Source of the DNA: Thiobacter sp. AK1
Lineage (GTDB): Bacteria; Pseudomonadota; Gammaproteobacteria; Burkholderiales; Thiobacteraceae
Direction: 5' to 3'
Assembly (NCBI RefSeq): GCF_039822265.1
Contig: NZ_JBAJEX010000001.1
Location: forward strand, 434,001 to 498,000
Length of the DNA stretch: 64,000 bases
Shown: one piece after another, positions 38,513 to 61,955 of the stretch
Position numbering within the stretch: position 1 is the stretch's first letter
Layout of the letters: each line of letters opens with the position of its first letter
Notes under the pieces: generated by a model
What the model was told of the DNA's origin: nothing
The model's database searches: none
What the model saw: only the letters and a program-made list of their open reading frames with translations
Program-made: the position numbers and the translations under genes

Positions 38513-38588
38513 GCGTGCAAGGCCTGCGTGAAGTGGCCACTGCTCTTTGCTTCGAGCACCGCGGTAGCTGAGATACCGGAGCGAGGCC

Positions 38589-39137
38589 ATGCTTTCTGCG
38601 CTGCTCGTCATGGCTGGCCTCGCAACTGGGCTGGGTCTCGCGTTGGGCTACGTGGCGGTGCGTTTCAGGGTCGAATCCAGTCCGCTAGTGGACAAGATCG
38701 ATGCCATCCTGCCCCAGACCCAGTGCGGCCAGTGCGGCTATCCCGGCTGCCGTCCCTATGCCGAGGCCATCGCCAAGGGCGAGGCAGACATCAATCAGTG
38801 TCCGCCGGGCGGCGAAGAAGGGATCCGCAAGCTGGCGGAGCTATTGGGGGTGGAGCCCAAGCCCTTGAACACCGCCCACGGCGTCGAGAAACCCAAGTCG
38901 GTGGCCGTGATCGACGAAAACTTGTGCATCGGCTGTACCCTGTGCATTCAGGCCTGCCCGGTGGATGCCATCGTCGGCGCCGCCAAGCAGATGCATACCG
39001 TGATCGCCTCCGAATGCACCGGTTGTGAGTTGTGCGTGGCGCCCTGTCCCGTGGATTGCATTCACATGGTGCCCATCCAGGAAGACATTTCCACCTGGAA
39101 GTGGAAATACCCGGTCATTCCCCTCAAGGCCGCCTGA
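38589..39137 (+). CDS. rnfB: Rnf complex iron-sulfur subunit B
   Basis: A 182-residue electron-transfer subunit: N-terminal membrane helix, a four-Cys cluster segment ([17 protein letters not shown]...QCPPGG), and an 8Fe ferredoxin domain ([16 protein letters not shown] and [16 protein letters not shown]). It takes electrons from ferredoxin. It is 76 bases downstream of rnfA and four bases before rnfC. Confidence 0.97.
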
Positions 39138-39141
39138 AACC

Positions 39142-40779: not shown

Positions 40780-41804
40780 CCTACGTGGCACAACCCGCAA
40801 GCGTCGGCATGATCATGGGCAAGGTACTGCTAGCGCTGGGCCTTGGCATTGCCGCCTACGTGATCTATTTCGGCCCCGCCATCCTGGTGAGTCTCACGCT
40901 CGCCTCCCTCGCTGCCCTCGCCTGCGAGGCGCTAGTCCTGCGCCTGCGTGGCTACGTAATCGCGCCCTTCTTGAAGGATGGCAGCGCCCTGGTCACGGCG
41001 TGGCTATTGGCGCTTTCCATGCCGCCGCTTGCGCCGTGGTGGCTGGTGGTGGCTGGCACCGCCTTCGCCATCGTGGTGGCCAAGCATCTCTACGGAGGAC
41101 TGGGGAACAACCTGTTTAATCCCGCCATGGCGGGCTACGTCCTGCTCTTGGTGTCCTTTCCTTCCCACATGACCCAGTGGCCGGCGGCGGAGATGCTGGC
41201 CCACGCCCACCTCTCCCTGCTCGACGCCGCGATCTACATTTTCACGGGCCATTTGCCCGCGGGCGTCACGCTCGATGCCATCACCATGGCCACGCCCCTG
41301 GACATGCTGAAGACCCAACTCAAACTCGGACATACGGTCAACGAAGTCACCCGCGCGCCCCTCTACGGCTACCTCGGAGGGCGCGGCAGTGAAGTCATCG
41401 CCGCTGCCTGGCTCGTTGGCGGACTTATCCTCCTCAAGCAGCGGGTGATCACCTGGCACGTGCCCGTGGCCATGCTGGCCGCCCTATTCGCCGCCGCCCT
41501 GTGGTTCCACGTGTACGACCCCGATCGTTACGTGGCACCCTGGTTTCATCTGGCCACGGGGGGTGCCATGCTGGGCGCCTTCTTCATCGCCACCGATCCC
41601 GTCACAGGCCCCACGACCCCCATGGGCAAGTTGATCTTCGGCGCCGCCATCGGTCTGCTCGTCTATCTCATTCGCACCTTCGGTGGCTATCCGGACGGCG
41701 TCGCCTTCGCGGTACTCATCATGAACATGGCCGTGCCTCTGATCGACCTCTACACCCAACCGCGGGTCATTGGGCACGACTCCAAGAAGTCCGACCGGTC
41801 ATGA
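40776..41804 (+). CDS. rnfD: Rnf complex subunit D
   Basis: Membrane flavoprotein of 342 residues with about nine helices, homologous to NqrB. The covalent FMN threonine lies in DAITMATPLD (S/T-x-A-T context), and GGLGNNLFNPAMAGYV and DPVTGPTTPMGKLIFG are family blocks. It overlaps rnfC by four bases and rnfG by four bases, so translation is coupled. Confidence 0.96.
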   Translation: MTYVAQPASVGMIMGKVLLALGLGIAAYVIYFGPAILVSLTLASLAALACEALVLRLRGYVIAPFLKDGSALVTAWLLALSMPPLAPWWLVVAGTAFAIVVAKHLYGGLGNNLFNPAMAGYVLLLVSFPSHMTQWPAAEMLAHAHLSLLDAAIYIFTGHLPAGVTLDAITMATPLDMLKTQLKLGHTVNEVTRAPLYGYLGGRGSEVIAAAWLVGGLILLKQRVITWHVPVAMLAALFAAALWFHVYDPDRYVAPWFHLATGGAMLGAFFIATDPVTGPTTPMGKLIFGAAIGLLVYLIRTFGGYPDGVAFAVLIMNMAVPLIDLYTQPRVIGHDSKKSDRS

Positions 41805-42448
41805 ATCCCGCCCTCGCCAATTCCGTGCGCACGGCGCTCATCCTGCTCGCCTTCACGCTGTTGGGCACGGCTATGCTGGCTTATACCTTTCAGCTTACGC
41901 GCGACATCATCGCCGCCAGCGAGGAACGGGAAAAACTCGCCCTCATCAGCCAAGTCTTGCCGCCGACGCTGTTCGACAACGATATCCTTACAGACACCAT
42001 CAAGCTGCCACCGACAGAAGCCTTGGGAACCATCGAACCTTCGCTGGTGTACCGAGCCACCCTACACGGCCAGCCCGCCGCCTTGGTGTTCGAGGCCGTG
42101 GCACCGGATGGCTACGCGGGTCGCATCTACTTGCTGGTAGCGGTGAAGGCCAACGGGGAACTGGCTGGCGTGCGCGTGGTATCGCATAATGAGACACCGG
42201 GGCTTGGCGACTACATCGACATCGCCAAAAGCCCTTGGATCCGTGTCTTCGAGGGTAAATCTTTGGCCAACGTCCGGCCCAACGGCTGGAAGGTCAAGAA
42301 AGACGGTGGCGATTTCCCCTACGTGAGCGGGGCGACCATCACGCCCCGCGCCGTCATCAAGGCGGTCCACGGGGTATTGATGTATTTCGAGAAAGAAGGC
42401 GGCCCCCTTTTCGCGCGCCCCGCCGCCTGGCAGGAGCAGCACAAATGA
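41801..42448 (+). CDS. rnfG: Rnf complex subunit G
   Basis: A 215-residue subunit with one N-terminal helix and a periplasmic FMN domain. FMN attaches to the Thr in [24 protein letters not shown] is the other conserved block. The ATG at 41801 overlaps the rnfD stop (ATGA); longer in-frame readings lie inside rnfD. It overlaps rnfE by four bases. Confidence 0.96.
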
Positions 42449-43125
42449 GCGAAATGTCATATCGCGAAATAGCCTACAACGGCGTTTGGAAACAGAACAC
42501 CGGGCTGGTGCAGCTACTGGGCATGTGCCCCTTGCTGGCGATTAGCACCAGCTTCGTCAATGCCGTTAGCCTTGGTCTGGCGACGGTGGCCGTGATGGCC
42601 CTGTCCAACGCCTCCATCTCCCTCATTCGCAACGTGGTGCCCAAGGAAATCCGCATCGCCGTGTTCATCCTAATCATCGCCGCGCTGGTGACCACGGTAC
42701 AGCTGCTCATGAATGCCTTCGTCCATCCGCTCTACCTAGTATTGGGCATCTTCATCCCCTTGATCACGACCAACTGCATCGTGCTCGCCCGCTGTGAGGC
42801 CTTCGCTTCCAAGAACCGCGTCTTGCCTTCCGTTTTTGATGGCCTGATGATGGGCCTCGGCCTGACTGCCGTTTTAGCCGTGCTGGGCGCCATGCGAGAA
42901 ATCATCGGCAAGGGCACGCTGTTCTCGGGCCTTGACATGGTGTTCGGGCCCGCAGCGAAAGAATGGGTGCTCCACGTCCTCCCCACCGGCTATCCAGGCG
43001 TGCTGGTGGCCGTTTTGCCACCCGGTGCCTTCATCGGTCTAGGCTGTCTGATCGCCTTGAAGAACTGGCGCGATGCGCGCGCCGCCCAGCAGCGCGCGGC
43101 TCCGGCCGCGCTCAAGAGCGCATGA
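42445..43125 (+). CDS. rnfE: Rnf complex subunit E
   Basis: A 226-residue membrane protein with six helices, paralogous to RnfA. Hallmarks: [23 protein letters not shown] and [20 protein letters not shown], with the Cys residues that bind the shared membrane cluster. Overlaps rnfG and nth by four bases each, completing rnfABCDGE-nth, the same order as E. coli rsxABCDGE-nth. Confidence 0.97.
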
Positions 43126-46208: not shown

Positions 46209-48014
46209 ATGAGTCTTGCCTCCCGTTTTTCCGACACCTTGGCCTGCAATTTGTGGATCTACCGCATCCTGCCCTTTTTGCGCTGGTGGCCGCGGGTGAA
46301 CCGGCAGACGCTGCGATCGGATGCCATCGCCGGTCTCACCGGCGCGCTCATCGTCCTGCCCCAGGGAGTCGCCTTCGCCACCATCGCCGGCCTGCCGCCC
46401 CAGTACGGCCTGTACGCCGCCATGGTGCCCGCCGTCATCGCCGCCCTGTTCGGCTCCAGCTGGCACCTGGTCTCCGGCCCCACCACCGCCATCTCCATCG
46501 CGGTGTTCGCCTCCGTCGCCCCCCACGCCACCCCAGGCAGCCCCGAGTTCATCAAACTGGTCCTCACCCTCACCTTCCTGGTGGGCGTGTTCGAACTCCT
46601 CCTCGGCCTCGCCCGCATGGGCACCCTGGTCAACTTCATCTCCCACACCGTGGTCATCGGCTTCACCGCCGGTGCTGCCGTGCTCATCGCCGGCAGCCAG
46701 ATCAAACACTTTTTCGGGCTGGAAATGGCGCGCGGGCTGCCGTTGCATGAAATCCTCTACCACCTCGTCTTGAAACTGGACCAGATCAACCCCTACGTCA
46801 CCGCCGTCGGCTTGATCACCCTGCTCTCGGGCATCCTGGTCAAACGCTACCTGCCGCGCTTTCCCTACATGATCGGTGCGATGATCGTGGGTTCGCTGGC
46901 GGCGTTCGTCCTCAACCACCATTTCGGCACCCTGCACACGGGAATCCGCACCGTGGGGGCCCTGCCCGCGGGGCTACCACCTCTGTCGATGCCGGATTTC
47001 TCCTTCAAGGCGCTCCATGACATGTTGTTTCCGGCGCTGGTGGTGACCATGCTGGCGCTCACCGAGGCCGTGTCCATTTCCCGCGCCATCGCCGCCAAGT
47101 CCGAGCAGCGCATCGATGGCAACCAGGAATTCATCGGTCAGGGCCTGTCCAACATCCTAGGTAGCTTCTTCTCCAGCTACGCCTCTTCCGGCTCCTTCAA
47201 TCGCAGCGGCGTCAACTACGCCTCTGGCGCCCAGACCCCCCTGGCCGCCGTGTTCGCTTCCCTCGCCCTGGTGCTGATCCTGCTTCTGGTCGCACCGCTG
47301 GCTGCCTACCTGCCCACCGCCGCCATGGCCGGCATCTTGTTCCTGGTGGCTTGGGGCCTGATCGATTTCCATCACATCGGCGCCATCTGGAAGATGAGCC
47401 GCAGTGAATCCCTAGTGCTCTGGGTGACCTTGATCGGCACCCTGATCAACCTGGAGAAGGGCATCTTCTTCGGCGTGCTGCTTTCCCTCATGTTCTACCT
47501 CTACCGCACCTCGCGCCCCCAGGTGCAGGCGGTGGTACCAGATCCGGAGCCGGGCAGCTATCACTACATCGACGCCACTGGCCGCCGCGAGTGTCCGCAA
47601 CTCAAGATGCTGCGAATCAACGGCTCCATCTTCTTTGGGGCGGTAGACCACGTGCAATCGCACTTGCACCAGGTGGACGCGGACAATCCCCAAGCCAAGC
47701 ACGTGCTGATCGTGGCCTCTGGCATCAACTTCGTGGACATCGCCGGGGCGGAAATGCTGGTGCAGGAAGCCAAGCGCCGCCGCCGCATGGGGGGCGGTCT
47801 GTATTTCTACCGCGTCAAGGAAAGCGCCTGCGAGATGCTGCGGCGCGGCAGCTATGCCGAGGAAATCGGCAAGGAAAACATTTTCCCGGCCAAGAGCCGG
47901 CCCATCGAGGCCATCTATCCCAAGCTGGACGCAGACGTCTGCGCGCGCTGCACAGCGCGCATCTTCCCCGAGTGCCAAGAGCAGCTGCCGGATGGACGGA
48001 GGCGAACAGACTAA
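46209..48014 (+). CDS. SulP family anion transporter with STAS domain and Cys tail (copy 1)
   Basis: A 601-residue SulP permease: membrane domain with PQGVAFATIAGLPPQYGLYAAMVP (the SulP signature) and GSFFSSYASSGSFNRSGVNYASGAQTPLAAVFASL, then a STAS domain from about residue 447 (INGSIFFGAVDHVQ, GINFVDIAGAEML). Members carry sulfate, bicarbonate or other anions, often with Na+ or H+. After the STAS domain comes an unusual tail with C578-x2-C581-x7-C589, shared with copy 2. Large blocks are nearly identical at DNA level to the copy at 51626. The nearby carbonic anhydrase gene makes bicarbonate a candidate substrate; sulfate is equally possible. Confidence 0.92.
   Translation: MSLASRFSDTLACNLWIYRILPFLRWWPRVNRQTLRSDAIAGLTGALIVLPQGVAFATIAGLPPQYGLYAAMVPAVIAALFGSSWHLVSGPTTAISIAVFASVAPHATPGSPEFIKLVLTLTFLVGVFELLLGLARMGTLVNFISHTVVIGFTAGAAVLIAGSQIKHFFGLEMARGLPLHEILYHLVLKLDQINPYVTAVGLITLLSGILVKRYLPRFPYMIGAMIVGSLAAFVLNHHFGTLHTGIRTVGALPAGLPPLSMPDFSFKALHDMLFPALVVTMLALTEAVSISRAIAAKSEQRIDGNQEFIGQGLSNILGSFFSSYASSGSFNRSGVNYASGAQTPLAAVFASLALVLILLLVAPLAAYLPTAAMAGILFLVAWGLIDFHHIGAIWKMSRSESLVLWVTLIGTLINLEKGIFFGVLLSLMFYLYRTSRPQVQAVVPDPEPGSYHYIDATGRRECPQLKMLRINGSIFFGAVDHVQSHLHQVDADNPQAKHVLIVASGINFVDIAGAEMLVQEAKRRRRMGGGLYFYRVKESACEMLRRGSYAEEIGKENIFPAKSRPIEAIYPKLDADVCARCTARIFPECQEQLPDGRRRTD
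46259..46705 (+). repeat. Gene-conversion block A, SulP copy 1
   Basis: 447 bases matching 51649-52095 at all but two positions (46351 region CCCAGGGAGTC against CACAGGGGGTC), offset exactly 5390. Identity stops abruptly after the codons for GSQIK. Confidence 0.9.
47028..47377 (+). repeat. Gene-conversion block C, SulP copy 1
   Basis: About 350 bases matching 52418-52767 with three mismatches; a smaller perfect block B (58 bases) lies at 46818-46875 and 52208-52265. DNA between the blocks is clearly diverged. Confidence 0.9.
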
Positions 48015-51542: not shown

Positions 51543-51576
51543 CGCTTTCTTGATGCTTGTTTGACCAGGGTTTGAC
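51538..51576 (+). promoter_or_regulatory. Four 11-bp-spaced half-sites, predicted response-regulator operator
   Basis: CTTAAC (51538), CTTGAT (51549), TTTGAC (51560) and TTTGAC (51571) recur at exactly 11-bp intervals. OmpR-family regulators bind direct repeats with one-helical-turn spacing, and PmrA/QseB boxes are CTTAAn-N5-CTTAAn. The array lies 50-90 bases before the second SulP start. Confidence 0.6.
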
Positions 51577-51625
51577 GGGCGGCCGGCTAGCATCAACTGT
51601 CTTTCCCACCGACCACGCGCCTGTC

Positions 51626-53422
51626 ATGCACGATTACACCGCCACGCTCTACCGCATCCTGCCCTTTTTGCGCTGGTGGCCGCGGGTGAACCGGCAGACG
51701 CTGCGATCGGATGCCATCGCCGGTCTCACCGGCGCGCTCATCGTCCTGCCACAGGGGGTCGCCTTCGCCACCATCGCCGGCCTGCCGCCCCAGTACGGCC
51801 TGTACGCCGCCATGGTGCCCGCCGTCATCGCCGCCCTGTTCGGCTCCAGCTGGCACCTGGTCTCCGGCCCCACCACCGCCATCTCCATCGCGGTGTTCGC
51901 CTCCGTCGCCCCCCACGCCACCCCAGGCAGCCCCGAGTTCATCAAACTGGTCCTCACCCTCACCTTCCTGGTGGGCGTGTTCGAACTCCTCCTCGGCCTC
52001 GCCCGCATGGGCACCCTGGTCAACTTCATCTCCCACACCGTGGTCATCGGCTTCACCGCCGGTGCTGCCGTGCTCATCGCCGGCAGCCAGATCAAGAACT
52101 TCTTCGGGCTGCCCATTCCCCGTGGCACGCCCTTCCACGAAACCATTCATCAACTATTCCTGCATCTGGGCGAAATCAACCCCTTTGTGACGACAGTGGC
52201 GATGGTGACCCTGCTCTCGGGCATCCTGGTCAAACGCTACCTGCCGCGCTTTCCCTACATGATCGCGGCCATGCTGGTGGGGAGCGTGTTTGCCGTCTGG
52301 CTCAATGGCATGCTGGGCGCAGAAGTCACCCACATCAAGACCGTCGGCGCCTTGCCCGCGGGGCTGCCGCCCCTCTCGCTTCCCGACCTCAGCCCGCAGG
52401 CTTTGCGCAACATGTTCTTTCCGGCGCTGGTCGTGACCATGCTGGCGCTCACCGAGGCCGTGTCCATTTCCCGCGCCATCGCCGCCAAGTCCGAGCAGCG
52501 CATCGATGGCAACCAGGAATTCATCGGTCAGGGCCTGTCCAACATCCTAGGTAGCTTCTTCTCCAGCTACGCCTCTTCGGGCTCCTTCAATCGCAGCGGC
52601 GTCAACTACGCCTCCGGCGCCCAGACCCCCCTGGCCGCCGTGTTCGCTTCCCTCGCCCTGGTGCTGATCCTGCTTCTGGTCGCACCGCTGGCTGCCTACC
52701 TGCCCACCGCCGCCATGGCCGGCATCTTGTTCCTGGTGGCTTGGGGCCTGATCGATTTCCATCACATTCACGCCGTGATGAAGGCCAGCCGCGTGGAAAG
52801 CCTGATTCTCTGGGCGACCCTGATTGGCACGCTGATCGATTTGGAAAAAGGCATCTTCGTCGGCATCATCCTGTCTTTGGGCGCCTACCTGTACCGCACC
52901 TCGCGCCCGGGCATCCAGCCCGTGGTACCGGATGACCAACCGGGCAGCTACCACTACATTGACGCAGCCGGGCGCCCGGAGTGTCCCCAGGTGAAACTGC
53001 TGCGGGTCAACGGCTCGATTTTCTTCGGCGCCGTCAACCACGTGCAGCAGCAGTTGCAGCAGGTGGACGAGATCAACCCGCAGGCACGGCATCTGGTGAT
53101 TCTCGCCTCCGGCATCAACTTCGTAGACATCGCTGGCGCCGAGATGCTGGCCCAGGAAGCCCGGCGGCGCAGGAAGATGGGAGGCGGTCTCTACTTCTAC
53201 CGGATCAAGGATAGTGTGCGGGAAATGCTGGCCAAGGGCGGGTGGCTAGACGAAATCGGCGAGGACAATCTGTTCCCGGCTCGCGCCGACCCCATGCAGC
53301 GCATCTATCCTTTGCTCGATGCCGGGATCTGCGCCTGCTGCGACAAGCGCATCTTCGAAGTCTGCAGAGCCACCAGCGCCACCGAGCTGACGCGGCCCAC
53401 GCTGCGCCGCGCCGCGGGATGA
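51626..53422 (+). CDS. SulP family anion transporter with STAS domain and Cys tail (copy 2)
   Basis: A 598-residue paralogue of the gene at 46209: the same SulP membrane domain, STAS domain (GINFVDIAGAEML) and C-terminal Cys tail (C569-x2-C572-x7-C580, plus C571). The ATG at 51626 gives MHDYTATLYRILPFLRW; the longer frame overlaps the operator array. Divergence from copy 1 is confined to parts of the membrane domain (after GSQIKNFFG, and before FFPALVVTM) and the C-terminal third, which may tune substrate or regulation. It overlaps the universal stress protein gene by four bases. Confidence 0.92.
   Translation: MHDYTATLYRILPFLRWWPRVNRQTLRSDAIAGLTGALIVLPQGVAFATIAGLPPQYGLYAAMVPAVIAALFGSSWHLVSGPTTAISIAVFASVAPHATPGSPEFIKLVLTLTFLVGVFELLLGLARMGTLVNFISHTVVIGFTAGAAVLIAGSQIKNFFGLPIPRGTPFHETIHQLFLHLGEINPFVTTVAMVTLLSGILVKRYLPRFPYMIAAMLVGSVFAVWLNGMLGAEVTHIKTVGALPAGLPPLSLPDLSPQALRNMFFPALVVTMLALTEAVSISRAIAAKSEQRIDGNQEFIGQGLSNILGSFFSSYASSGSFNRSGVNYASGAQTPLAAVFASLALVLILLLVAPLAAYLPTAAMAGILFLVAWGLIDFHHIHAVMKASRVESLILWATLIGTLIDLEKGIFVGIILSLGAYLYRTSRPGIQPVVPDDQPGSYHYIDAAGRPECPQVKLLRVNGSIFFGAVNHVQQQLQQVDEINPQARHLVILASGINFVDIAGAEMLAQEARRRRKMGGGLYFYRIKDSVREMLAKGGWLDEIGEDNLFPARADPMQRIYPLLDAGICACCDKRIFEVCRATSATELTRPTLRRAAG
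51649..52095 (+). repeat. Gene-conversion block A, SulP copy 2
   Basis: Partner of 46259-46705, two mismatches in 447 bases. Confidence 0.9.
52418..52767 (+). repeat. Gene-conversion block C, SulP copy 2
   Basis: Partner of 47028-47377, three mismatches in about 350 bases. Confidence 0.9.
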
Positions 53423-53945: not shown

Positions 53946-54506
53946 ATGATCCGCAAGAATCCCCGCGGCGACCTACCGGTCGTCGCTGCCTCTGCCTTCG
54001 TCGATCCCACCGCCATCCTGTGTGGCAAGGTGTTCGTCGGCGAGAATGTGTTCATCGGCCCCTACGCCGTGATCCGTGCTGACGAGGTGAACGAAGAGGG
54101 TGACATGGAGCCCATTATCATCGGTGCCAACTCCAACATCCAGGACGGTGTGGTCATCCACTGCAAAGCTGGCGGTGGCGTCATCATCGGCGAAGGCACC
54201 TCCATCGCCCACCGTTCCATCGTGCACGGCCCCTGCCGGGTGGGCAACAATGTGTTCATCGGTTTCAACTCGGTGCTGTTCAACTGCAGCGTGGGTGACG
54301 GCTCCGTGGTACGCCACAACTCCGTGGTAGAAAACTGCAGCGTGCCGCCCGGCTTCTACATTCCCTCCACCGTCAACATCCATTCCGATGCCGAGCTCGC
54401 CCGCATCGAACGGGTAAGCCCCGACGTGGCCGGCTTCTCGGAATCGGTCGCCGAAGCCAACCGCGAGCTGGTCAAAGGCTACAACCGCATCCGCAACGAG
54501 TTCTGA
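53946..54506 (+). CDS. Gamma-class carbonic anhydrase (left-handed beta-helix)
   Basis: A 186-residue hexapeptide-repeat protein with a C-terminal helix. The zinc/iron ligands of the Cam family are in place: H72 (VVIHCK), H89 and H94 (SIAHRSIVHGP, the five-residue spacing of the archaeal enzyme), plus R45 (VIRADEV) and Q66. It lacks the acidic loop of Cam and so resembles the CamH subclass. It should hydrate CO2, and with the two SulP transporters upstream it suggests inorganic carbon handling. CamH activity varies, so catalysis is inferred. Confidence 0.85.
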   Translation: MIRKNPRGDLPVVAASAFVDPTAILCGKVFVGENVFIGPYAVIRADEVNEEGDMEPIIIGANSNIQDGVVIHCKAGGGVIIGEGTSIAHRSIVHGPCRVGNNVFIGFNSVLFNCSVGDGSVVRHNSVVENCSVPPGFYIPSTVNIHSDAELARIERVSPDVAGFSESVAEANRELVKGYNRIRNEF

Positions 54507-54514
54507 GCGGGCTT

Positions 54515-54706
54515 TTAGCTCCGGCCGCTGCCGCGGATCAGCCATTCCGGCAGCTTGCGGTCGCCTGCGTGATCGATGATGTACTGCCGGATCAGACGCC
54601 GTACCACCTGGGACGGTGTGAGATCCTGCTGGGCGCAGATTTCCTCGAATAGCTTCTTCTTGCGGGGATCGATCAGGATAGTGAGGCGGGCAGTGCGCTG
54701 TTCCAT
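54515..54706 (-). CDS. Ribbon-helix-helix (CopG-like) regulator
   Basis: A 63-residue protein, ARLTILIDPRKKKLFEEICAQQDLTPSQVVRRLIRQYIIDH: a beta strand and two helices of the ribbon-helix-helix DNA-binding fold, with a basic strand for major-groove contact. It is divergent from the hydrogenase-like operon, and a perfect 19-bp palindrome lies between them, so it probably regulates itself and that operon. No toxin or antitoxin partner is adjacent. No strong ribosome site is visible. Confidence 0.8.
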   Translation of the reverse strand: MEQRTARLTILIDPRKKKLFEEICAQQDLTPSQVVRRLIRQYIIDHAGDRKLPEWLIRGSGRS

Positions 54707-54736: not shown

Positions 54737-54755
54737 ATGTTAATACAATTAACAT
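54737..54755. promoter_or_regulatory. Perfect 19-bp palindrome, predicted operator
   Basis: ATGTTAAT-ACA-ATTAACAT, perfect on both arms, with another TTAACA half-site at 54771-54776. It ends at the -35 box of the hyf-like promoter and lies 31 bases before the ribbon-helix-helix gene start, so it fits an operator for that regulator. Confidence 0.7.
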
Positions 54756-54783
54756 TGAAGCCGCAACCGCTTAACACTAGAAT
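54755..54783 (+). promoter_or_regulatory. Probable sigma70 promoter of the hydrogenase-related operon
   Basis: TTGAAG (54755-54760), 17 bases, TAGAAT (54778-54783), with a start expected near 54790, 22 bases before the first gene. The palindrome 54737-54755 touches the -35 box. Confidence 0.65.
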
Positions 54784-54811: not shown

Positions 54812-56803
54812 ATGGCACCCACAGACCCCGCATTGCCCCTAGAGCTGGCCTGGGGCTGTACCCTTGCCTGGGTCGCGCTGGGCGTGCTGCAACTGTTCAC
54901 CGGCGCGCGCTCCCTCTACTACGCGGCCTCGGCGCTGGTGGGGCTCGCGCTGGCGGGTATCGCCCTCGCTGCCCTCGGCAAGCCTGCCCAGGCCATGATC
55001 GTACCGCTGGGGCTGCCCGATCTACCCTTGCACCTCCGGCTCGATGCCCTGTCCGTCGTCTTCCTCACGGTGCAGGGCCTTGCGGCCTGCGGCATAAGCC
55101 TGCACGCCGCCGGTTACTTCCGTAGCCTCGACCCTGCGACCGCACGCACCGTAGGTCTCTGGTACAACCTGTTTCTGGCAGGCATGGCGCTGGTGGTGCT
55201 GACAGATGATGCCTACGCCTTCATGGTGGCCTGGGAGCTGATGGCGCTGGCATCCTACTTCCTGGTCACCACCGACCACGCGGTAGAGGAGATCCGGCAC
55301 GCCGGCTTTCTTTATCTGCTCATGGCACACGTGGGTGCCGTGGCTTTGCTGTTGGCCTTCGGCGTGATCCAGGGAGGTCAGGGCGCCTACACCTTCGATG
55401 TGATGCGCGCAGCCACACCGTCTCCGTTCTGGGCGGCGGTCGCGTTCCTGCTGGCCGTGTTCGGCTTCGGCGCCAAGGCTGGGTTGGTGCCGCTGCACGT
55501 GTGGCTGCCGGAGGCGCATCCCGCCGCGCCTTCACCGGTGTCCGCACTGATGTCGGGGGTAATGCTGAAGACCGCCATCTATGGGCTGTTGCGCGTCACC
55601 CTAGATCTACTGCCCAGCCAACCCGCTTGGTGGGGCACCCTACTCATCCTGCTGGGACTCGTCTCCACCCTCTACGGCGTGATCTTCGCCGCCGTGCAAT
55701 CCGACATCAAACGGCTCCTCGCCTGGTCCTCCATCGAAAACATCGGCATCATCGTCACCGGGATTGGGCTGGCTCTGGTGTTCCGCGCGGAAAGCAAGGC
55801 AGGCATTGCTGCGCTGGCGCTGACCGCCGCGCTTTATCACGTGCTCAACCACGCCCTAATGAAGGGTCTTTTGTTCCTGGGTACCGGCTCCGTGCTGCAC
55901 GCCACGGGCACGCGTCTGATGGGCGGCCTGGGTGGCCTGATCCGCGCCATGCCGTGGACGGCGACCTTGATGCTGATTGGCGTGTTCGCCATCGCCGGCC
56001 TGCCACCTTTGAATGGTTTCGTCTCGGAGTGGCTGCTGCTGCAAGCCTTTCTCTTCACGCCCGGACTGGCGCAGCCCTATCTGAATATGATCATCCCAGT
56101 GGCCGCGGCTGCGGTGGCACTGGCAGCGGCACTCGCGGCCTATGTCATGGTCAAGCTCTACGGGGTGACGTTCCTCGGCCAGCCACGCAGCGCGGAACTC
56201 GCCCACGCCCACGAGGCAGGCTGGCCGGAGCGGCTGGGCATGCTCTGGCTCGCGGCAGGTTGTGTCGTCCTGGGCCTGGTCCCGATGGCTGCCCTTATGC
56301 TCGTTGCGCCAGCCAGCCAGCTTTTGCTCGGCGCCGCGCTGCCCGTGCAAAGCGGCCTTCTGCTCGCACCCCTGGGCGCCGAGCGCGCGAGCTTCGCACC
56401 CGGCGTCCTGCTGGCCGTGCTCCTATTCATGCTGCTTGCCACGCTGCTCTGGGTGCGCCTCGCCTATCACAGTCGCGTGCGTCATGCCGCGGCCTGGGAT
56501 TGCGGTTATCCGGAACAGGACGGGCGCATGCAGGATACCGCGGAAGGCTTTGGGCAACCTATCCGTCACGTGTTCGACGCCTTCATGAAAGTCGAACGCG
56601 AAATGCCCGATGCTTTTGACCCTAAGCCGCGCTACCGTGGCGCGACACGGGATCGGCTGTGGATCCTCCTGTATACGCCGCTGGCGCGTCTCGTGGCTTG
56701 GCTGGCGGAACAGGCGGCGCGCGCGCAGCACGGACGCATCCAGTGGTACCTGTTCTACAGCTTCGCGACCCTGACCTTCCTGTTGTTCTTCGTAAGCCGC
56801 TAG
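54812..56803 (+). CDS. hyfB: HyfB/NuoL-like ion-translocating membrane subunit
   Basis: A 663-residue antiporter-type subunit with about 14-16 helices: DALSVVFLTVQGLAACG, WELMALASYFLVTTDH, GFGAKAGLVPLHVWLPEAHPAAPSPVSALMSG (the NuoL/M/N proton-channel core with its Lys), LAWSSIENIGIIVTG and ALMKGLLFLGTGSVLHATG. The C-terminus continues with a HyfB-like region (DCGYPEQDGRMQDTAEGFGQPIRHVF) that matches hydrogenase-4/Ehr proteins and not complex I NuoL. Followed four bases later by hyfC. Confidence 0.9.
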   Translation: MAPTDPALPLELAWGCTLAWVALGVLQLFTGARSLYYAASALVGLALAGIALAALGKPAQAMIVPLGLPDLPLHLRLDALSVVFLTVQGLAACGISLHAAGYFRSLDPATARTVGLWYNLFLAGMALVVLTDDAYAFMVAWELMALASYFLVTTDHAVEEIRHAGFLYLLMAHVGAVALLLAFGVIQGGQGAYTFDVMRAATPSPFWAAVAFLLAVFGFGAKAGLVPLHVWLPEAHPAAPSPVSALMSGVMLKTAIYGLLRVTLDLLPSQPAWWGTLLILLGLVSTLYGVIFAAVQSDIKRLLAWSSIENIGIIVTGIGLALVFRAESKAGIAALALTAALYHVLNHALMKGLLFLGTGSVLHATGTRLMGGLGGLIRAMPWTATLMLIGVFAIAGLPPLNGFVSEWLLLQAFLFTPGLAQPYLNMIIPVAAAAVALAAALAAYVMVKLYGVTFLGQPRSAELAHAHEAGWPERLGMLWLAAGCVVLGLVPMAALMLVAPASQLLLGAALPVQSGLLLAPLGAERASFAPGVLLAVLLFMLLATLLWVRLAYHSRVRHAAAWDCGYPEQDGRMQDTAEGFGQPIRHVFDAFMKVEREMPDAFDPKPRYRGATRDRLWILLYTPLARLVAWLAEQAARAQHGRIQWYLFYSFATLTFLLFFVSR

Positions 56804-56807
56804 CACC

Positions 56808-57752
56808 ATGGAAAGCGGAATCGCCTTGCAACTAGCCCAAACCCTACTCGCGGTACTGGCCGCGCCCTTGCTCATGGGTTGGGTCAATGCATGCCGTGCC
56901 TGGCTGTCCAACCGCAGCGCGCCTTCGCTGCTCATGCCTTATCGCCAGCTGCGTCGGTTGTTCCACAAGGACGTAGTGCTCGCCAACCAGGCCTCGCCGC
57001 TGTTCCGTCTGGCGCCCTATGCCATCTTCGCCTGCATGGTGTTGGCAGCGGGCATCGTGCCCACCCTAATGAACGATCTGCCCTTCTCCCCGGCCGCGGA
57101 TGCCATCGCCCTAGTAGGACTGTTCGCCATGGCACGCATGTTCCAAACGCTCGCGGCAATGGACGTGGGCACCGCGTTCGGCACCCTGGGTGCGCGCCGG
57201 GAAATGTTCGTGGCGTTTTTGGCGGAACCCGCCCTGCTCATGGTGTTCTTCACTGCCAGCCTGATCGCCCGATCCACGGCTCTGCCCACCATCGTGGACG
57301 TATTCGCCCACCAGCGGTTCGCCATCTATCCCAGCCTGGCCTTCGCCGCGGTGGCTTTCTGGATGGTCTCCACAGCGGAGAATGCGCGCATTCCGGTGGA
57401 CAATCCCACCACCCATCTGGAACTCACCATGATCCACGAGGCCATGATCCTGGAGTATTCCGGCCGGCATCTCGCCCTCATCGAATGGGCGGTGGCGCTC
57501 AAACTGTTCACCTATTCGGCACTAGGCATCGCCTTGTTTCTGCCTTGGGGAATTGCGCCCGTGGGCGATTGGACGGGCCTGCCACTGGCCTTGGCCGCCC
57601 TGACACTGAAACTGGCCATGGGTGGTTTTACGCTGGCAGTTTTGGAAACGCTCAACGCCAAGATGCGGCTGTTCCGGGTGCCGGAGTTTTTGGGCACGGC
57701 TTTTCTGCTCGCGGTGTTGGGCATGCTGGTGCATTTCCTGCTGGAGGTGTGA
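56808..57752 (+). CDS. hyfC: HyfC/HycD/NuoH-like membrane subunit
   Basis: A 314-residue protein with eight helices, linking the hydrophilic arm to the ion-pumping arm. Family blocks: PYRQLRRLFHKDVV, MARMFQTLAAMDVGTAFGTLGARREMFVAFLAEPAL, and the NuoH-type acidic loop ENARIPVDNPTTHLELTMIHEAMILEYSG. Its last base overlaps hyfE (TGATG). Confidence 0.9.
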   Translation: MESGIALQLAQTLLAVLAAPLLMGWVNACRAWLSNRSAPSLLMPYRQLRRLFHKDVVLANQASPLFRLAPYAIFACMVLAAGIVPTLMNDLPFSPAADAIALVGLFAMARMFQTLAAMDVGTAFGTLGARREMFVAFLAEPALLMVFFTASLIARSTALPTIVDVFAHQRFAIYPSLAFAAVAFWMVSTAENARIPVDNPTTHLELTMIHEAMILEYSGRHLALIEWAVALKLFTYSALGIALFLPWGIAPVGDWTGLPLALAALTLKLAMGGFTLAVLETLNAKMRLFRVPEFLGTAFLLAVLGMLVHFLLEV

Positions 57753-58414
57753 TGACGCTGCCGCTGCCTTTGCAACTCACCAATCTGCTCGCCGCCATCT
57801 TGCTCCTGATCGCCTTTGCCCTGCTGTCCCAGCGGCGCATCATCGGCCTCATCACGCTGTTCGCATGGCAGGGTCTAGCCCTCGCTTTATCCACCACCCT
57901 GGTCGCCTTGCATACGAAGCAGCCCCACCTGCTCGCCTCGGCGGGCCTCACCCTGGTGCTCAAGGTGGGTCTTCTGCCTTGGATCTTTTTCCGTCTGGTG
58001 CGCCGGCTCGACATCGAACGCGACGTTGAGCCCATCATCAACATTCCCACCACCATGCTGATCGGCATCGTGCTGGTGATATTTGCCTTCAATCTGGCAC
58101 AACCCATTTCCGCCCTGGCCGGAACCGTCACGCGCTCCAATTTGGGTATCGCCATGGCCGTCGTGCTGCTGTCTTTCCTGATGATGATCAGCCGGCGCCA
58201 GGCCATTGCCCAGGTGATCGGTTTCCTGGCCATGGAGAACGGCCTGTTCTTCGCCGCCACCAGCGCCACCTATGGCATGCCTCTAGTGGTGGAGCTGGGC
58301 ATCGCCCTTGATGTGCTGGTGGGCGTATTCGTGCTGGTGATTTTCTTCTTCCAGATCCGGGAGACCTTCGAATCCCTGGACCTGCGTCATCTGGAAAGAT
58401 TGAAGGAACACTGA
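57752..58414 (+). CDS. hyfE: HyfE-like membrane subunit (NuoK-like)
   Basis: A 220-residue protein with six or seven helices: QRRIIGLITLFAWQGLALALS, TLVLKVGLLPWIFFRLVRRL, and a NuoK-like part with AQVIGFLAMENGLFFAATSATYGMPLVVELGIALDVLVGVFVLVIFFFQI. The ATG at 57752 overlaps the hyfC stop. HyfE is a hallmark of hydrogenase-4/Ehr operons and is not found in complex I, which separates this cluster from a nuo operon. It ends one base before hyfF. Confidence 0.88.
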   Translation: MTLPLPLQLTNLLAAILLLIAFALLSQRRIIGLITLFAWQGLALALSTTLVALHTKQPHLLASAGLTLVLKVGLLPWIFFRLVRRLDIERDVEPIINIPTTMLIGIVLVIFAFNLAQPISALAGTVTRSNLGIAMAVVLLSFLMMISRRQAIAQVIGFLAMENGLFFAATSATYGMPLVVELGIALDVLVGVFVLVIFFFQIRETFESLDLRHLERLKEH

Positions 58415-58415
58415 C

Positions 58416-59867
58416 ATGAACCTGGCCTGGGTGCTTGTCTTGCCGCTGTTGGGGGGCCTCGTGCTTACCCTGGTGGGACACCGCCGCATCGCGCCGACAG
58501 TGAATGTCGCCTTCGCTCTCGCTACCTTCCTTGCTACCCTGGCACTGGCGCATGACGTGGCCCGCCATGGCCCGTTCACCCTCGCCCACGACTGGTTCTT
58601 CATCGACCCCTTCAATGTGTTTCTGGTCGCCCTCACCGCTTTTGTCGGCTTCACCACGGCAGTGTTCTCGCGGCCTTACATGCGCATCGAGGAAGACCAT
58701 GGCCGTGTGGCCTCCGCACGGCTACGGATGTACCACGGGAGCTACCAAATCTTCCTGGCCATGATGCTGCTCGCACTTACGACCAATAACATGGGCATCC
58801 TCTGGGTGGCAATGGAAGGCGCTACGCTCGCAACGGTGCTGCTGGTGTCCCTCTACCGTACGCCGGCATCCCTGGAAGCCGCCTGGAAATACTTCATTCT
58901 CTGTGGTGTGGGGATCGCCCAGGCATTGTTCGGCACCATCCTGCTCTATTTCGCCGCGGAGCGCGTGCTAGGCGAAGGCGGCACCGCCCTGTTGTGGACC
59001 CACCTGGACGCCGTCAAGGCCCAGCTCGAACCCGTTGTGTTGCAGCTCGCCTTCATTTTTCTTCTGGTGGGATACGGCACCAAGGTCGGACTGGTGCCAC
59101 TGCATAGCTGGCTGCCGGACGCGCATGCCGAGGGCCCGACACCGGTATCGGCGGTGTTGTCTGGCCTGCTACTCAACGTGGCCCTGTACGCAGTGGTGCG
59201 TGGCAAGGTGCTGGTGGACGGTGCACTCCACTCCGATCTCGCCGGCAATCTGATGATGGGCTTTGGTGTTGCCAGCGTAGTGTTTGCCGCCCTACTGCTC
59301 CGACGCCAGCTGGACGTAAAGCGCATGTTCGCTTATTCCTCCATCGAGCACATGGGGCTGATCACCTTCGCCTTCGGCATGGGTGGCATCACCGCCAGCT
59401 TCGCCGGGTTGCTGCACATGACCATGCACTCCCTCACCAAATCGGCGATCTTCTTCGCCGTAGGTCACGCCACCCAGAAGGCCGGCACCCAGGTGATGGA
59501 TGATATCCGCGGGCTGATCCGCTCCAACCCCACCATTGGTTGGGGGCTGCTACTCGGCACCGTGGCCATCCTCGGCGTGCCACCCTTCGGGGTGTTCGCC
59601 AGCGAGTTTCTCATCATCACCACGGCCATGCATGACCACCCGTGGGCCACGCCGTTCCTGATCACGGGCCTGGGGATCGCCTTTGCCGCGATTTTCGGGC
59701 GCGTACAGCCGATGGTGTTCGGAAAGGCGGAGCTACCCTACCTGCCTCATCAGCCGGCATTGCTGCCCGTGTTCCTGCACCTCGCGCTGGTCTTCGTTTT
59801 GGGCCTGTACATTCCGGATTTCCTGGCGAACTGGTACCGCCAGGCGGCGCGTCTGCTCGGAGCGTGA
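58416..59867 (+). CDS. hyfF: HyfF/NuoN-like ion-translocating membrane subunit
   Basis: A 483-residue second antiporter-type subunit, about 14 helices: FFIDPFNVFLVALTAFVGFTTAVFS, WVAMEGATLATVLLVSLYRT, YGTKVGLVPLHSWLPDAHAEGPTPVSAVLSGLLLN (channel core) and FAYSSIEHMGLITFAFGMGG. Two such antiporter subunits (HyfB, HyfF) imply two proton or sodium pathways in the complex. Confidence 0.92.
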   Translation: MNLAWVLVLPLLGGLVLTLVGHRRIAPTVNVAFALATFLATLALAHDVARHGPFTLAHDWFFIDPFNVFLVALTAFVGFTTAVFSRPYMRIEEDHGRVASARLRMYHGSYQIFLAMMLLALTTNNMGILWVAMEGATLATVLLVSLYRTPASLEAAWKYFILCGVGIAQALFGTILLYFAAERVLGEGGTALLWTHLDAVKAQLEPVVLQLAFIFLLVGYGTKVGLVPLHSWLPDAHAEGPTPVSAVLSGLLLNVALYAVVRGKVLVDGALHSDLAGNLMMGFGVASVVFAALLLRRQLDVKRMFAYSSIEHMGLITFAFGMGGITASFAGLLHMTMHSLTKSAIFFAVGHATQKAGTQVMDDIRGLIRSNPTIGWGLLLGTVAILGVPPFGVFASEFLIITTAMHDHPWATPFLITGLGIAFAAIFGRVQPMVFGKAELPYLPHQPALLPVFLHLALVFVLGLYIPDFLANWYRQAARLLGA

Positions 59868-59870
59868 TCC

Positions 59871-61409
59871 ATGCCGCACCAGATCGACCTCACCCCGCTT
59901 GCGCCCCACGGCGGTGGCCCCATCTGGCAGTTCGCGCTCGGACGCACCCGCCTCACCGCCTTCGCTCGCGGTATCCAGGAGGAAGGCGGTCAGCTGCTGG
60001 CCCTCTGGGGCGCCGACGATCGGCACCTCGGCGGCACATTCACCCTGCACACCGCCTATCTCTCGGTGCTGGGTCTAATCTGGGCGAAGACACCGCTGGA
60101 AGCGCACGCGCCGAGTTATCCGGACATCGCCCATATCTTTCCCCAGGCCGGACGCATGCAGCGCGCCACCCGCGATCTACTAGGCCTGATCGCGGAGAAT
60201 GCCGACGACACGCGCAAATGGCTGCGCCATGCCGTCTGGAGCGATGGACAGTTCCCCTTGCGCCGCGATTTCGAGCTTGCCCAACCCGAAGCGGCAGACG
60301 CCTATCCCTTCGTGCGTGTCGAGGGTCAGGGGGTGCACGAAATCCCGGTGGGGCCCATTCACGCCGGCGTGATCGAGCCGGGTCATTTCCGCTTCTCCGT
60401 GATCGGTGACCGGGTGCTGCGCATGGAGACGCGCCTGGGTTATACGCACAAGGGCATTGAGAAACGCTTCGAAGGACTGGATGTTTCAAGCGGGGCACGT
60501 TTGGCAGGTCGTGTCTGTGGCGACAGCCACAGTGCCTTCACCTGGGCCTTCTGCATGGCAGTGGAAACCGCGCTGGAAACCACGCCACCTCCCCGCGCCC
60601 AGTGGCTGCGTGCCTTGTTCCTGGAGATCGAGCGCCTGATCAACCATCTGGGCGATTTAGGCTATCTCGGCAACGACGTGGCGCTCGGCTTCGGCTTCAA
60701 CCAGTTCTGGCGCATCAAGGAAACTTGGCTACGGGCTTGCCGGGAATGGTTTGGCCATCGTTACCTGTTCGATTGCATCGTGCCAGGCGGTGTGGCCCGC
60801 GATCTCACGGCGAGCGCGGCGGCGGAAGTCGTACGTCTGGTGCGCGAAACGCGCGAGCAAGTGCGTCCCTTGATCGAACTCTACGAAGAACATGCGGGCG
60901 TACAGGACCGCTTCACCGGCACCGGCATCGTCACGCCGGCGCTCGCTGCCCGGCTCGGACTGACTGGGCTCGCAGGACGCGCAAGCAGTCAGGCCTGGGA
61001 TGCCCGCGTGCAGTTTCCCTGGCCGCCCTACCAAGAGCTGGACGTGCAAATGGCACTGGAACGCAGCGGCGATGTCGCCGCCCGGGCCCGGGTACGTGCC
61101 GCCGAGACGCTGGAGTCCCTGCGTCTACTTAAGACCATTGCAGAGAGCTTGCCGCCCGGCCCGCTGGTACGGGCGCTGCCCACGTCCGCCCGAGTATGCG
61201 AAGCGCTCGGCTGGGTGGAAGGCTGGCGCGGACCAGTGATCGTGCATGTCCGGCTGCAGGCGGACGGTCGCCTGGACCGGGTGCACCCCCACGATCCCTC
61301 CTGGCAAAACTGGCCGTTGCTGGAACTGGCGGTGCTGGGCAATATCGTGCCCGACTTCCCACTCATCAACAAATCCTTCAACCTATCCTACAGCGGAGCG
61401 GACTTGTAG
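59871..61409 (+). CDS. hyfG: HyfG/HycE/NuoCD-like large subunit lacking the NiFe cysteine set
   Basis: A 512-residue fusion: an N-terminal NuoC-like domain (about 1-140; YLSVLGLIWAKTPLEAHAPSYPDIAHIFPQAGRMQRATRDLLG) and a NuoD/hydrogenase large-subunit domain (about 150-512; MPVGPIHAG-type block, HFRFSVIGDRVLRMETRLGYTHKGIEKRFEGL). In true group 4 hydrogenases four cysteines hold NiFe. Here the first motif reads RVCGDSHSAF, with C216 kept but the second Cys lost, apparently by a short deletion. The C-terminus is NKSFNLSYSGADL, with neither Cys of DPCxxC. It therefore cannot hold a normal NiFe site and groups with Ehr complexes. Confidence 0.88.
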   Translation: MPHQIDLTPLAPHGGGPIWQFALGRTRLTAFARGIQEEGGQLLALWGADDRHLGGTFTLHTAYLSVLGLIWAKTPLEAHAPSYPDIAHIFPQAGRMQRATRDLLGLIAENADDTRKWLRHAVWSDGQFPLRRDFELAQPEAADAYPFVRVEGQGVHEIPVGPIHAGVIEPGHFRFSVIGDRVLRMETRLGYTHKGIEKRFEGLDVSSGARLAGRVCGDSHSAFTWAFCMAVETALETTPPPRAQWLRALFLEIERLINHLGDLGYLGNDVALGFGFNQFWRIKETWLRACREWFGHRYLFDCIVPGGVARDLTASAAAEVVRLVRETREQVRPLIELYEEHAGVQDRFTGTGIVTPALAARLGLTGLAGRASSQAWDARVQFPWPPYQELDVQMALERSGDVAARARVRAAETLESLRLLKTIAESLPPGPLVRALPTSARVCEALGWVEGWRGPVIVHVRLQADGRLDRVHPHDPSWQNWPLLELAVLGNIVPDFPLINKSFNLSYSGADL

Positions 61410-61955
61410 ATGCCTGCCCGGATCATTTTGCGCCAACTCTTCAAGACCGGCATTATTTCTGAGCCGCCTCCGGCCCCCGATCCCACACTCGCCGTAAACG
61501 CACACGCCCTCAACGAGGAAATCCTCAGGATCTTTGGGCGCGCCGTCGGAGTGCGCCACGTGGATGCCGGTTCCTGCAATGCTTGTGAGCTGGAAATCCA
61601 CGCCATGAATGGGCCCCACTACAACATCGAGGGTGCGGGCGTGAAATTCGTTGCCAGTCCGCGTCATGCGGATGTGCTACTGGTAACCGGGCCGGTGTCC
61701 GCCCATCTGGCAACGGCGTTGCGTCGCACCTTCGAGGCCACGCCGGATCCGAAATGGGTGGTGGCCGTGGGCGATTGCGCCGCCACCGGTGGACCATTCG
61801 GCGAATCCTATGCCTGTCGCGGGCGCGTCGCCAACGTGATTCCGGTGGACGTGGTGGTACCAGGCTGTCCGCCCGAGCCGAAGCGCATCCTGGCGGGCAT
61901 CCTTACCGCCGTACGCACAGCCCCGGCGCACCGACAAGCCCCAGCTAGCCCCTAA
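61410..61955 (+). CDS. hyfI: HyfI/NuoB-like iron-sulfur subunit
   Basis: A 181-residue small subunit: RHVDAGSCNACELEIHAMNGPHYN carries the C-x2-C of group 4 small subunits, then VVAVGDCAATGGPFG and VVVPGCPPEPKRILAGIL provide the other two ligands, so the proximal 4Fe-4S cluster is complete. It is the only iron-sulfur subunit in this operon; no HyfA, HyfH or NuoI-like ferredoxin is present. Starts directly after the hyfG stop (ATG at 61410). Confidence 0.92.
   Translation: MPARIILRQLFKTGIISEPPPAPDPTLAVNAHALNEEILRIFGRAVGVRHVDAGSCNACELEIHAMNGPHYNIEGAGVKFVASPRHADVLLVTGPVSAHLATALRRTFEATPDPKWVVAVGDCAATGGPFGESYACRGRVANVIPVDVVVPGCPPEPKRILAGILTAVRTAPAHRQAPASP

Follow-up and report, generated by a model that had tools for sequence, protein, structure and literature searches.

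The window analysed here, a 64,000-nucleotide stretch of the Thiobacter sp. AK1 genome (NZ_JBAJEX010000001.1, positions 434,001 to 498,000), carries a hydrogenase-4-like operon of six genes (54812-61955, + strand) whose product is probably an ion pump and not a hydrogenase. We read it as an intact membrane oxidoreductase of six subunits that translocates ions and belongs to the superfamily of complex I and the group-4 hydrogenases, in the branch lacking a nickel-iron (NiFe) site that includes the Hyq complex and the energy-converting hydrogenase-related (Ehr) complexes, in which electrons would be exchanged between a carrier and a substrate. Taken as a whole, we give this explanation a probability of about 0.4. 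The family assignment and the ion-pumping parts of it are highly likely; the electron partners proposed below are put forward tentatively.

The six frames are all open and nearly abut, with intergenic gaps of 4, 2, 1, 3 and 0 bases along the operon. They encode a hyfB-like antiporter-type subunit (54812..56803; 663 aa; Proton_antipo_M by Pfam), a hyfC/NuoH-like membrane subunit (56808..57752; 314 aa; NADHdh family by Pfam), a hyfE-like membrane subunit (57755..58414; 219 aa; assigned by its likeness to HyfE, with the start at 57755 picked within a longer listed frame), a hyfF-like antiporter-type subunit (58416..59867; 483 aa; NCBIfam 'hydrogenase 4 subunit F'), a hyfG/hyqG large subunit of the NuoC-NuoD fusion type without a NiFe site (59871..61409; 512 aa; both domains present by Pfam) and a hyfI/NuoB-like subunit with the four cysteines of one [4Fe-4S] cluster (61410..61955; 181 aa; Oxidored_q6), all on the + strand. 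Identity to the E. coli K-12 proteins over the aligned parts is 37% for HyfB, 27% for HyfE, 41% for HyfF and 39% for HyfI, and 33% across 243 residues for HyfC. The HyfB-like and HyfF-like proteins pass their NCBIfam models ('hydrogenase 4 subunit B', 836.5 bits against a cut-off of 667; 'hydrogenase 4 subunit F', 841 against 543), and the HyfE-like protein scores 89.9 bits with the hydrogenase 4 membrane subunit model, under the cut-off of 136, and gave no match in the Pfam scan. None of the six products is of the HyfA, HyfH or NuoI type by Pfam, and no NADH module genes are found among the six. A preliminary description of this DNA, made from the sequence alone, had proposed just such an intact hyfB, C, E, F, G and I-like operon, with two antiporter-type subunits and without a ferredoxin subunit, and these proposals hold. 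Furthermore, hyfF and hyfI share a locus with hyfG in 75/80 and 74/80 named relatives, respectively, with many of the contigs ending early, so the grouping is not a matter of chance; these relatives are the best 80 of at least 569 and therefore lean to the window's own branch.

The large subunit lacks the residues that would hold a NiFe centre. When HyfG is aligned with E. coli HycE and HyfG, its first motif reads RVCGDS where HycE has RVCGIC, and its second reads NLSYSG where HycE has DPCYSC, in exact agreement with the earlier observation that C216 is kept and the other three NiFe cysteines are missing. This pattern was followed through 115 HyfG rows, comprising the window and 114 fetched loci, of which L016/L092 and L017/L096 are identical over the last 350 residues, so that the rows do not represent 115 independent genomes. 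Position 216 is Ser in 97 rows, Cys in 8, Ala in 8 and Val in 2; position 219 is Ser in 88, Thr in 23, Ala in 2, Asn in 1 and Cys in 1; position 506 is Ser in 97, Ala in 11 and Asn in 5, with 2 gaps; and position 509 is Gly in 110 and Ala in 3, again with 2 gaps. All four NiFe cysteines occur together in 0/115 rows, and a cysteine at either second-motif position in 0/113 rows with letters there. C216 is not a feature of the family, and its reading as a meaningful remnant was rejected. In all 113 assessable rows, those having an intact end and a stop codon, HyfG finishes at the same residue (L109, which runs off a contig end, and L081, with a broken frame near the end, were excluded). HycE runs 32 residues past this point and NuoCD stops where HyfG does; a C-terminal extension like that cleaved off in NiFe maturation is absent in all 113. 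The ligand columns and the shared C-terminus together argue that the family has neither a NiFe site nor a maturation peptide. The statement that the large subunit 'has lost its NiFe site' is thus right as to absence; it is not upheld as to a loss within this lineage, given that none of the 115 rows has the complete set. The ligands are likewise absent in eight more distant HyfG paralogues (L119-L126), which form two groups in the tree, all end in ...DR and keep a Glu that aligns with Glu169 of HyfG.

The same alignment reveals strong conservation around the empty site. A single residue occupies 46 HyfG columns (up to three gaps allowed), and Glu169, Arg214 and Asp218 are invariant in the family. 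Over 113 rows, 69 positions are near-invariant, 42 of them common to the HycE and HyfG of E. coli, including Glu169, Arg214 and Arg453, and 23 of them specific to the family, including Asp218, Asp262, Asp269, Asn500 and Lys501. Asp218 adjoins an old ligand position, Asn500 and Lys501 adjoin the second motif, and Asp269 is also present in NuoCD. By this alignment the old NiFe pocket is rebuilt with other conserved polar residues, which we infer from homology to share one pocket.

The cluster and the ion channels are also kept. In HyfI, Cys56, Cys59 and Cys123 stand in 107/107 rows and Cys153 in 106, with one gap, as expected from the earlier claim that the NuoB-like subunit keeps all four cluster cysteines. 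In NuoM numbering, Glu144, Lys234 and Glu407 are kept in 57/57 HyfB homologues (Lys265 in 52/57) and in 69/69 HyfF homologues, where the Lys265 position is Asn in 69/69, as in E. coli HyfF. Because the cluster cysteines and the antiporter channel residues are kept, the operon likely encodes a functional redox ion pump, with pumping itself a prediction; the same conservation supports the suggestion, made in the preliminary description, of an Ehr-like, NiFe-less and probably ion-pumping complex.

A profile of 18 family members, run against solved structures, matched HycE best (7z0s, 345 bits), followed by the membrane-bound hydrogenase (203 bits), complex I (~182) and the membrane-bound sulfane reductase MBS (6u8y, 150). 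The predicted fold of HyfG (AlphaFold, HyfG alone) is likewise best matched by 7z0s_E (TM score 0.86), making HycE of formate hydrogenlyase-1 the closest solved structure by both measures; MBS/Mbx and complex I belong to the same superfamily but are more distant. MBS, too, is without a complete NiFe site. E. coli HycE and HyfG (hydrogenase-4) differ from the window HyfG in having the four NiFe cysteines, the C-terminal extension and further Fe-S subunits, whereas complex I has an NADH module, a NuoI-type ferredoxin subunit and a Tyr/His pair for the quinone head group, all missing from the window operon. In the HyfG tree, which is midpoint-rooted and carries a long-branch warning, 113 family rows group together (support 100), two NiFe-less paralogue groups adjoin them (89) and HycE/HyfG fall outside. 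The family turns up under the labels Pseudomonadota, Nitrospirota, Acidobacteriota and Desulfobacterales, chiefly in metagenome bins. One of these, L069, is an operon fragment in a bin labelled Bordetella parapertussis, a doubtful label; L049 and L052 have tandem hyf-type operons, both complete in L052 and the first cut by a contig end in L049.

Within the family, HyfG positions 267 and 499 change together, being Cys/Cys in 40 rows, Gly, Ala or Val with Ile in 69, mixed in 4 and gapped in 2. The window belongs to a mainly betaproteobacterial clade of 71 rows (support 97), and the 42 rows that have Cys499 all fall elsewhere in the tree, so that the switch may be one event rather than independent covariation. 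Cys-type HyfG is found on Rhizobium, Azospirillum and Ciceribacter plasmids, in gammaproteobacteria and in bins labelled Nitrospirae and Desulfobacterales.

These plasmid proteins, which fall within the family tree, are homologues of Hyq from Azorhizobium caulinodans, whose operon hyqRBCEFGI has the same six structural genes in the same order and no A or D gene (PMC2650096). Like its counterpart here, HyqG is a NuoC-NuoD fusion without both CxxC motifs, and HyqI has a CxxC and two further cysteines (PMC3357923); the window has a divergent small regulator gene, whereas Hyq has hyqR within the operon. Cys258, Cys491 and Cys497 of the 504-residue HyqG have been called completely conserved (PMC3357923). 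The corresponding Cys259, Cys491 and Cys497 of a 504-residue Rhizobium johnstonii protein align with window positions 267, 499 and 505, so that, mapped through this protein and not through Azorhizobium HyqG itself, the window has Gly267, Ile499 and Leu505; among the 115 rows the first two positions are both Cys in 40 and all three in 5. This speaks against a general mechanism based on the three HyqG cysteines. In the genetic work of one group, hyq depends on NifA, and a hyq deletion mutant grows more slowly on N2 but normally on ammonium (PMC2650096). Deletion raised H2 release about 15-fold (12 to 175) during N2 fixation at 20 uM O2 but lowered it from 61,000 to 14,000 in micro-oxic strains without HupSL, and a nifK strain without HupSL, with hyq present, released 56,600, so that this release is independent of nitrogenase (PMC3357923). 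From these data the Hyq authors infer an H2:quinone oxidoreductase, although a NiFe site is by their own account 'uncertain if not unlikely' (PMC3357923).

Acidithiobacillus ferrooxidans has the same gene set, hyfBCEFGI, a likeness drawn from names and descriptions, with a catalytic subunit classed as non-hydrogenase (PMC7735108), and reverse electron flow or formate oxidation has already been suggested for this complex (PMC2621215). Complexes described as Ehr likewise combine a group-4-like large subunit lacking NiFe ligands with antiporter-like membrane subunits (PMC10284858, PMC7894505, PMC6349859). Ligand-free examples are reported from comammox Nitrospira (PMC10284858), from Riflemargulisbacteria (PMC6349859) and from Geobacter, where the complex rises with formate (PMC7894505). 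Ehr is a loose label, which the window operon fits by description, though bins labelled Nitrospirae do sit in the window's branch. The portions of the literature consulted on NiFe-less group-4 relatives contain no biochemical demonstration of a reaction. Even so, the earlier statement that the reaction of such complexes is unknown was too sweeping, in view of the hyq genetics with its H2 claims (PMC3357923, PMC2650096) and the non-hydrogenase classification in A. ferrooxidans (PMC7735108). Judged by its sequence, the window operon is an Ile-type member of this known Hyq/Ehr kind, and this tie links the unexplained complex with a mutant phenotype already described.

We then looked for genes that co-occur with the family (E<=9e-90), which is found in 34 of 274 sampled genomes of the class, using four gene families: RuBisCO, HypD, nifH and the formate dehydrogenase alpha subunit (Fdh-alpha). 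With nifH defined by a curated cut-off (24/274 genomes), it was present in 11/34 genomes with the family and 13/240 without (odds ratio 8.4, p=1.8e-5). The link was found among HypD-positive genomes (9/17 vs 12/92, p=0.0007) and, with small numbers, among HypD-negative ones (2/17 vs 1/148, p=0.03), and it persists in both formate-dehydrogenase strata. Counted by taxonomic family (at least 172 labels), it is 11/27 vs 8/~145 (p=6e-6), or 10/27 where one genome must hold both (p=6e-5). The link is carried by the Cys type (8/22, p=0.00015), with four genomes untyped. The nif link known from Azorhizobium is seen here again in a different class. HypD, in contrast, is not significantly associated (17/34 vs 92/240, p=0.20), all 17 family-bearing genomes without a HypD match are at least 93% complete, and NiFe maturation as a requirement was accordingly rejected. 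A search of the window's own genome for hyp maturation genes, proposed as a check in the preliminary description, does find HypD, and gives no verdict on the complex, since the genome also encodes a separate large subunit with both CxxC motifs (L127, G000:C1:188000-202000), another hydrogenase that explains the HypD; the gene adjoining it resembles one for a maturation protease. RuBisCO, or autotrophy, was rejected as a defining context (20/34 vs 122/240, p=0.46). Fdh-alpha above cut-off is weakly associated (14/34 vs 56/240, p=0.035, uncorrected), and formate dehydrogenase was set aside as a partner, the window's own genome having no Fdh-alpha match at E<=1e-100 (4/11 candidates scored).

In the mechanism that we propose, HyfB, HyfC, HyfE and HyfF would form a membrane arm moving H+ or Na+, as the conserved channel residues suggest, and HyfG and HyfI a cytoplasmic arm with one [4Fe-4S] cluster, as suggested by the four conserved cysteines. 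A soluble low-potential carrier (ferredoxin or flavodoxin) would dock directly on HyfI, the likeliest arrangement because no ferredoxin-like, flavin or diaphorase subunit is present. Electrons would then pass via the single cluster to or from a small substrate in the cavity between HyfG, HyfI and HyfC, perhaps a quinone bound in a non-canonical manner. Conditions would set the direction, either towards energy conservation or, driven by the proton-motive force, in reverse to make low-potential reductant; reverse operation would agree with the nif association as well as with the slowed diazotrophic growth of hyq mutants.

Several points weigh against this reading. No electron donor or acceptor emerged from any of the analyses made here. 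In complex I, we take Tyr87 and His38 (T. thermophilus numbering) to be the residues that contact the quinone head group; the Tyr87 column is Gly217 in the window (G in 113 and A in 2 of 115 rows) and the His38 column is Ile168 (I in 113/113), replacements that disfavour an ordinary quinone site. In the pocket, the AlphaFold model of HyfG has a pLDDT below 50, with low confidence at residues 144-194 and 488-512. For the Ile type, the window's own subgroup, the nifH link falls short of significance (2/8, p=0.15), and while the Hyq host fixes N2, a search for nifH in the genome of the window gave no match at E<=1e-60 (8/13 candidates scored); nifH was, moreover, one of four families tried, and lineage or a micro-oxic life style could produce the association. 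Finally, the authors of the Azorhizobium work took their data to show hydrogenase activity (PMC3357923), and the H2 phenotypes of hyq are a real difficulty for any non-hydrogenase reading.

Should the complex make low-potential electrons, it would supply a missing link in the provision of reductant in many nitrogen fixers and chemolithotrophs. A bolder proposal, unlikely in our estimate but worth stating, is that Hyq/Ehr complexes are reverse electron-transport machines, in which a proton- or sodium-motive force would power the reduction of ferredoxin or flavodoxin by the membrane pool, by way of the cluster and the rebuilt pocket. In diazotrophs such a machine would feed nitrogenase, and in oxidisers of iron, sulfur and nitrite it would serve carbon fixation or other reactions at low potential; the H2 phenotypes of the Azorhizobium hyq mutants would on this view be an indirect consequence of a changed electron supply. 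The analysis names a small set of pocket residues and two genomic leads, namely the co-occurrence with nitrogenase and a linkage to SulP transporters described below.

Of the other explanations, a conventional quinone reductase, passing electrons from reduced ferredoxin to the quinone pool as in complex I and always in the energy-conserving direction, is favoured by the presence of NuoB-, NuoCD-, NuoH- and NuoL/M-like subunits; we regard it as unlikely but credible, as the head-group Tyr and His are absent across the family rows and HyfG is nearer to HycE than to NuoCD by both profile score and fold. That the enzyme reacts with H2 after all, as an H2:quinone oxidoreductase of the kind claimed for Hyq but with a non-standard catalytic site, would account for the hyq deletion altering H2 release in both directions (PMC3357923, Table 2), and Hyq has the same six subunits as the window operon. 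We nevertheless consider this improbable, as the four NiFe ligands and the C-terminal extension are missing throughout, half of the family genomes (17/34) have no HypD, and any catalysis needing the three HyqG cysteines cannot occur here, where all three are replaced; the accessible parts of the Hyq literature mention neither a purified enzyme nor complementation. A complex fed at HyfI by a separate formate dehydrogenase has been proposed in related forms for Riflemargulisbacteria (PMC6349859), Geobacter (PMC7894505) and A. ferrooxidans (PMC2621215), and draws on the weak Fdh-alpha co-occurrence given above. Its chance appears slimmer still, considering the lack of an Fdh-alpha match in the window's genome and of any formate dehydrogenase family in the up- and downstream lists of the 25 most frequent neighbour families. 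A decaying relic of hydrogenase-4, which the absence of the NiFe ligands might suggest, has next to no chance and was rejected: the six frames are open, and the single-residue HyfG columns are conserved across a broadly distributed family.

The neighbourhood of the operon invites one further reading, an inorganic-carbon module in which the complex's ion gradient would drive a neighbouring Na+/bicarbonate transporter of the SulP family while a gamma carbonic anhydrase (gamma-CA) interconverts CO2 and bicarbonate. A SulP gene lies within ~3 genes of the operon in 10/48 genomes (window included), where ~0.2 would be expected from the SulP counts of those genomes, treated as independent; the 10 loci spread over ~seven branches of the HyfG tree and involve several SulP subfamilies. 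The gamma-CA-like protein of the window aligns His at what we take to be the Zn-ligand positions, and the alpha-carboxysome locus of the same genome (L132, G000:C10:56000-74000; CsoSCA, bacterial microcompartment proteins, SulP, a LysR regulator and CbbL/S/Q) has a SulP gene beside RuBisCO. In E. coli, inorganic carbon rose with a carboxysome-linked SulP of Thiomicrospira pelophila, whereas another SulP from that organism gave no rescue; SulP uptake is described as Na+-dependent (PMC12628692). The window SulP passes the general sulP model (390 vs 380 bits) but falls far below the BicA cut-off (184 vs 880). SulP members also transport sulfate. In addition, 38/48 genomes have no SulP near the operon, RuBisCO is not associated with the family over the 274 genomes, the divergent regulator gene stands between the SulP and gamma-CA genes and hyfB, and gamma-CA is nearby just in the window and in 2/80 loci. 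We therefore judge a carbon module to be unlikely, although a tie to bicarbonate uptake is possible for some lineages, if not for the whole family. The ion-pumping oxidoreductase exchanging electrons with a soluble carrier remains the reading that we prefer.

The SulP linkage itself emerged from a scan of neighbouring open reading frames (ORFs; 104/107 upstream and 110/123 downstream, the omitted 3 and 13 being mostly very long or short), in which SulP was the commonest non-hyf family, with 10 hits upstream and 1 downstream. Nine of the upstream hits are in L034, L035, L047, L080 (two), L081, L097, L105 and L112, the L081 stretch replacing in the tally a longer ORF that contains it; the tenth is taken to be that of L113, which is 91% identical to L112's and lies outside the 48 genomes. 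One subfamily is window-like (66% identity to L047 and L081), a second comprises L034, L035, L038, L080 and L097, to which the SulP of the own carboxysome locus (727 residues) is related (48% to L034), and a third, distant one comprises L105 and L112. A literature search on SulP or sulfate permease with hydrogenase-4 returned no title or abstract naming such a link. In the window, the SulP-STAS anion transporter (51557..53422, + strand, Pfam) is associated with the operon as the third gene upstream of hyfB, the divergent regulator uncounted. A second SulP gene at 46209-48014 is 82% identical to it over 574 residues, and between the two lie a TauE-type gene and what we take, without a family search, to be a response regulator and a sensor kinase.

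Closer to the operon, the gamma-CA-like gene (53946..54506, + strand) encodes an associated protein, not a subunit, whose best matches among solved structures are gamma carbonic anhydrases and CcmM; the NCBIfam matches shown are all below their cut-offs. Of its homologues in the 2/80 loci, that of L035 immediately precedes hyfB and that of L034 lies ~4.5 kb upstream. Divergent from hyfB is a small regulator-like gene (54515..54706, - strand, 63 aa), with a resemblance to the ribbon-helix-helix type noted without a family search. It has tblastn matches in 15/80 related loci, 12 of them within ~140 bases of the hyfB start and two of these 12 on the + strand. Between the regulator gene and hyfB is a perfect inverted repeat of 19 bases, a possible operator (54737..54755; 8-base arms, 3-base spacer), whose 15-base core is unique in the window and had zero matches in 100 shuffles; a search of the 15 loci that have a regulator homologue did not find this repeat. 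A promoter-like site (9/12) follows at 54755..54783 (+ strand), and the region has 2 such sites against 1.6 in shuffles, which is no evidence by itself. A universal stress protein gene also lies upstream, among the gamma-CA-like, SulP and regulator genes, and downstream of the operon are a DUF3579 gene, a cobalamin adenosyltransferase gene and a reversed ammonium transporter gene.

Further upstream in the window, ~12 kb from the hyf operon and on the same strand, is an Rnf-type operon (37937-43125) with two Rnf-Nqr subunits, an RnfB-like ferredoxin, RnfC, an RnfD-like subunit and an FMN-binding subunit, which could act as a supplier or user of low-potential ferredoxin. In related loci, genes of the spermidine-synthase type also rank among the most frequent other neighbours of hyf (6 upstream, 4 downstream), and one stands directly before hyfB in Paraburkholderia aromaticivorans.

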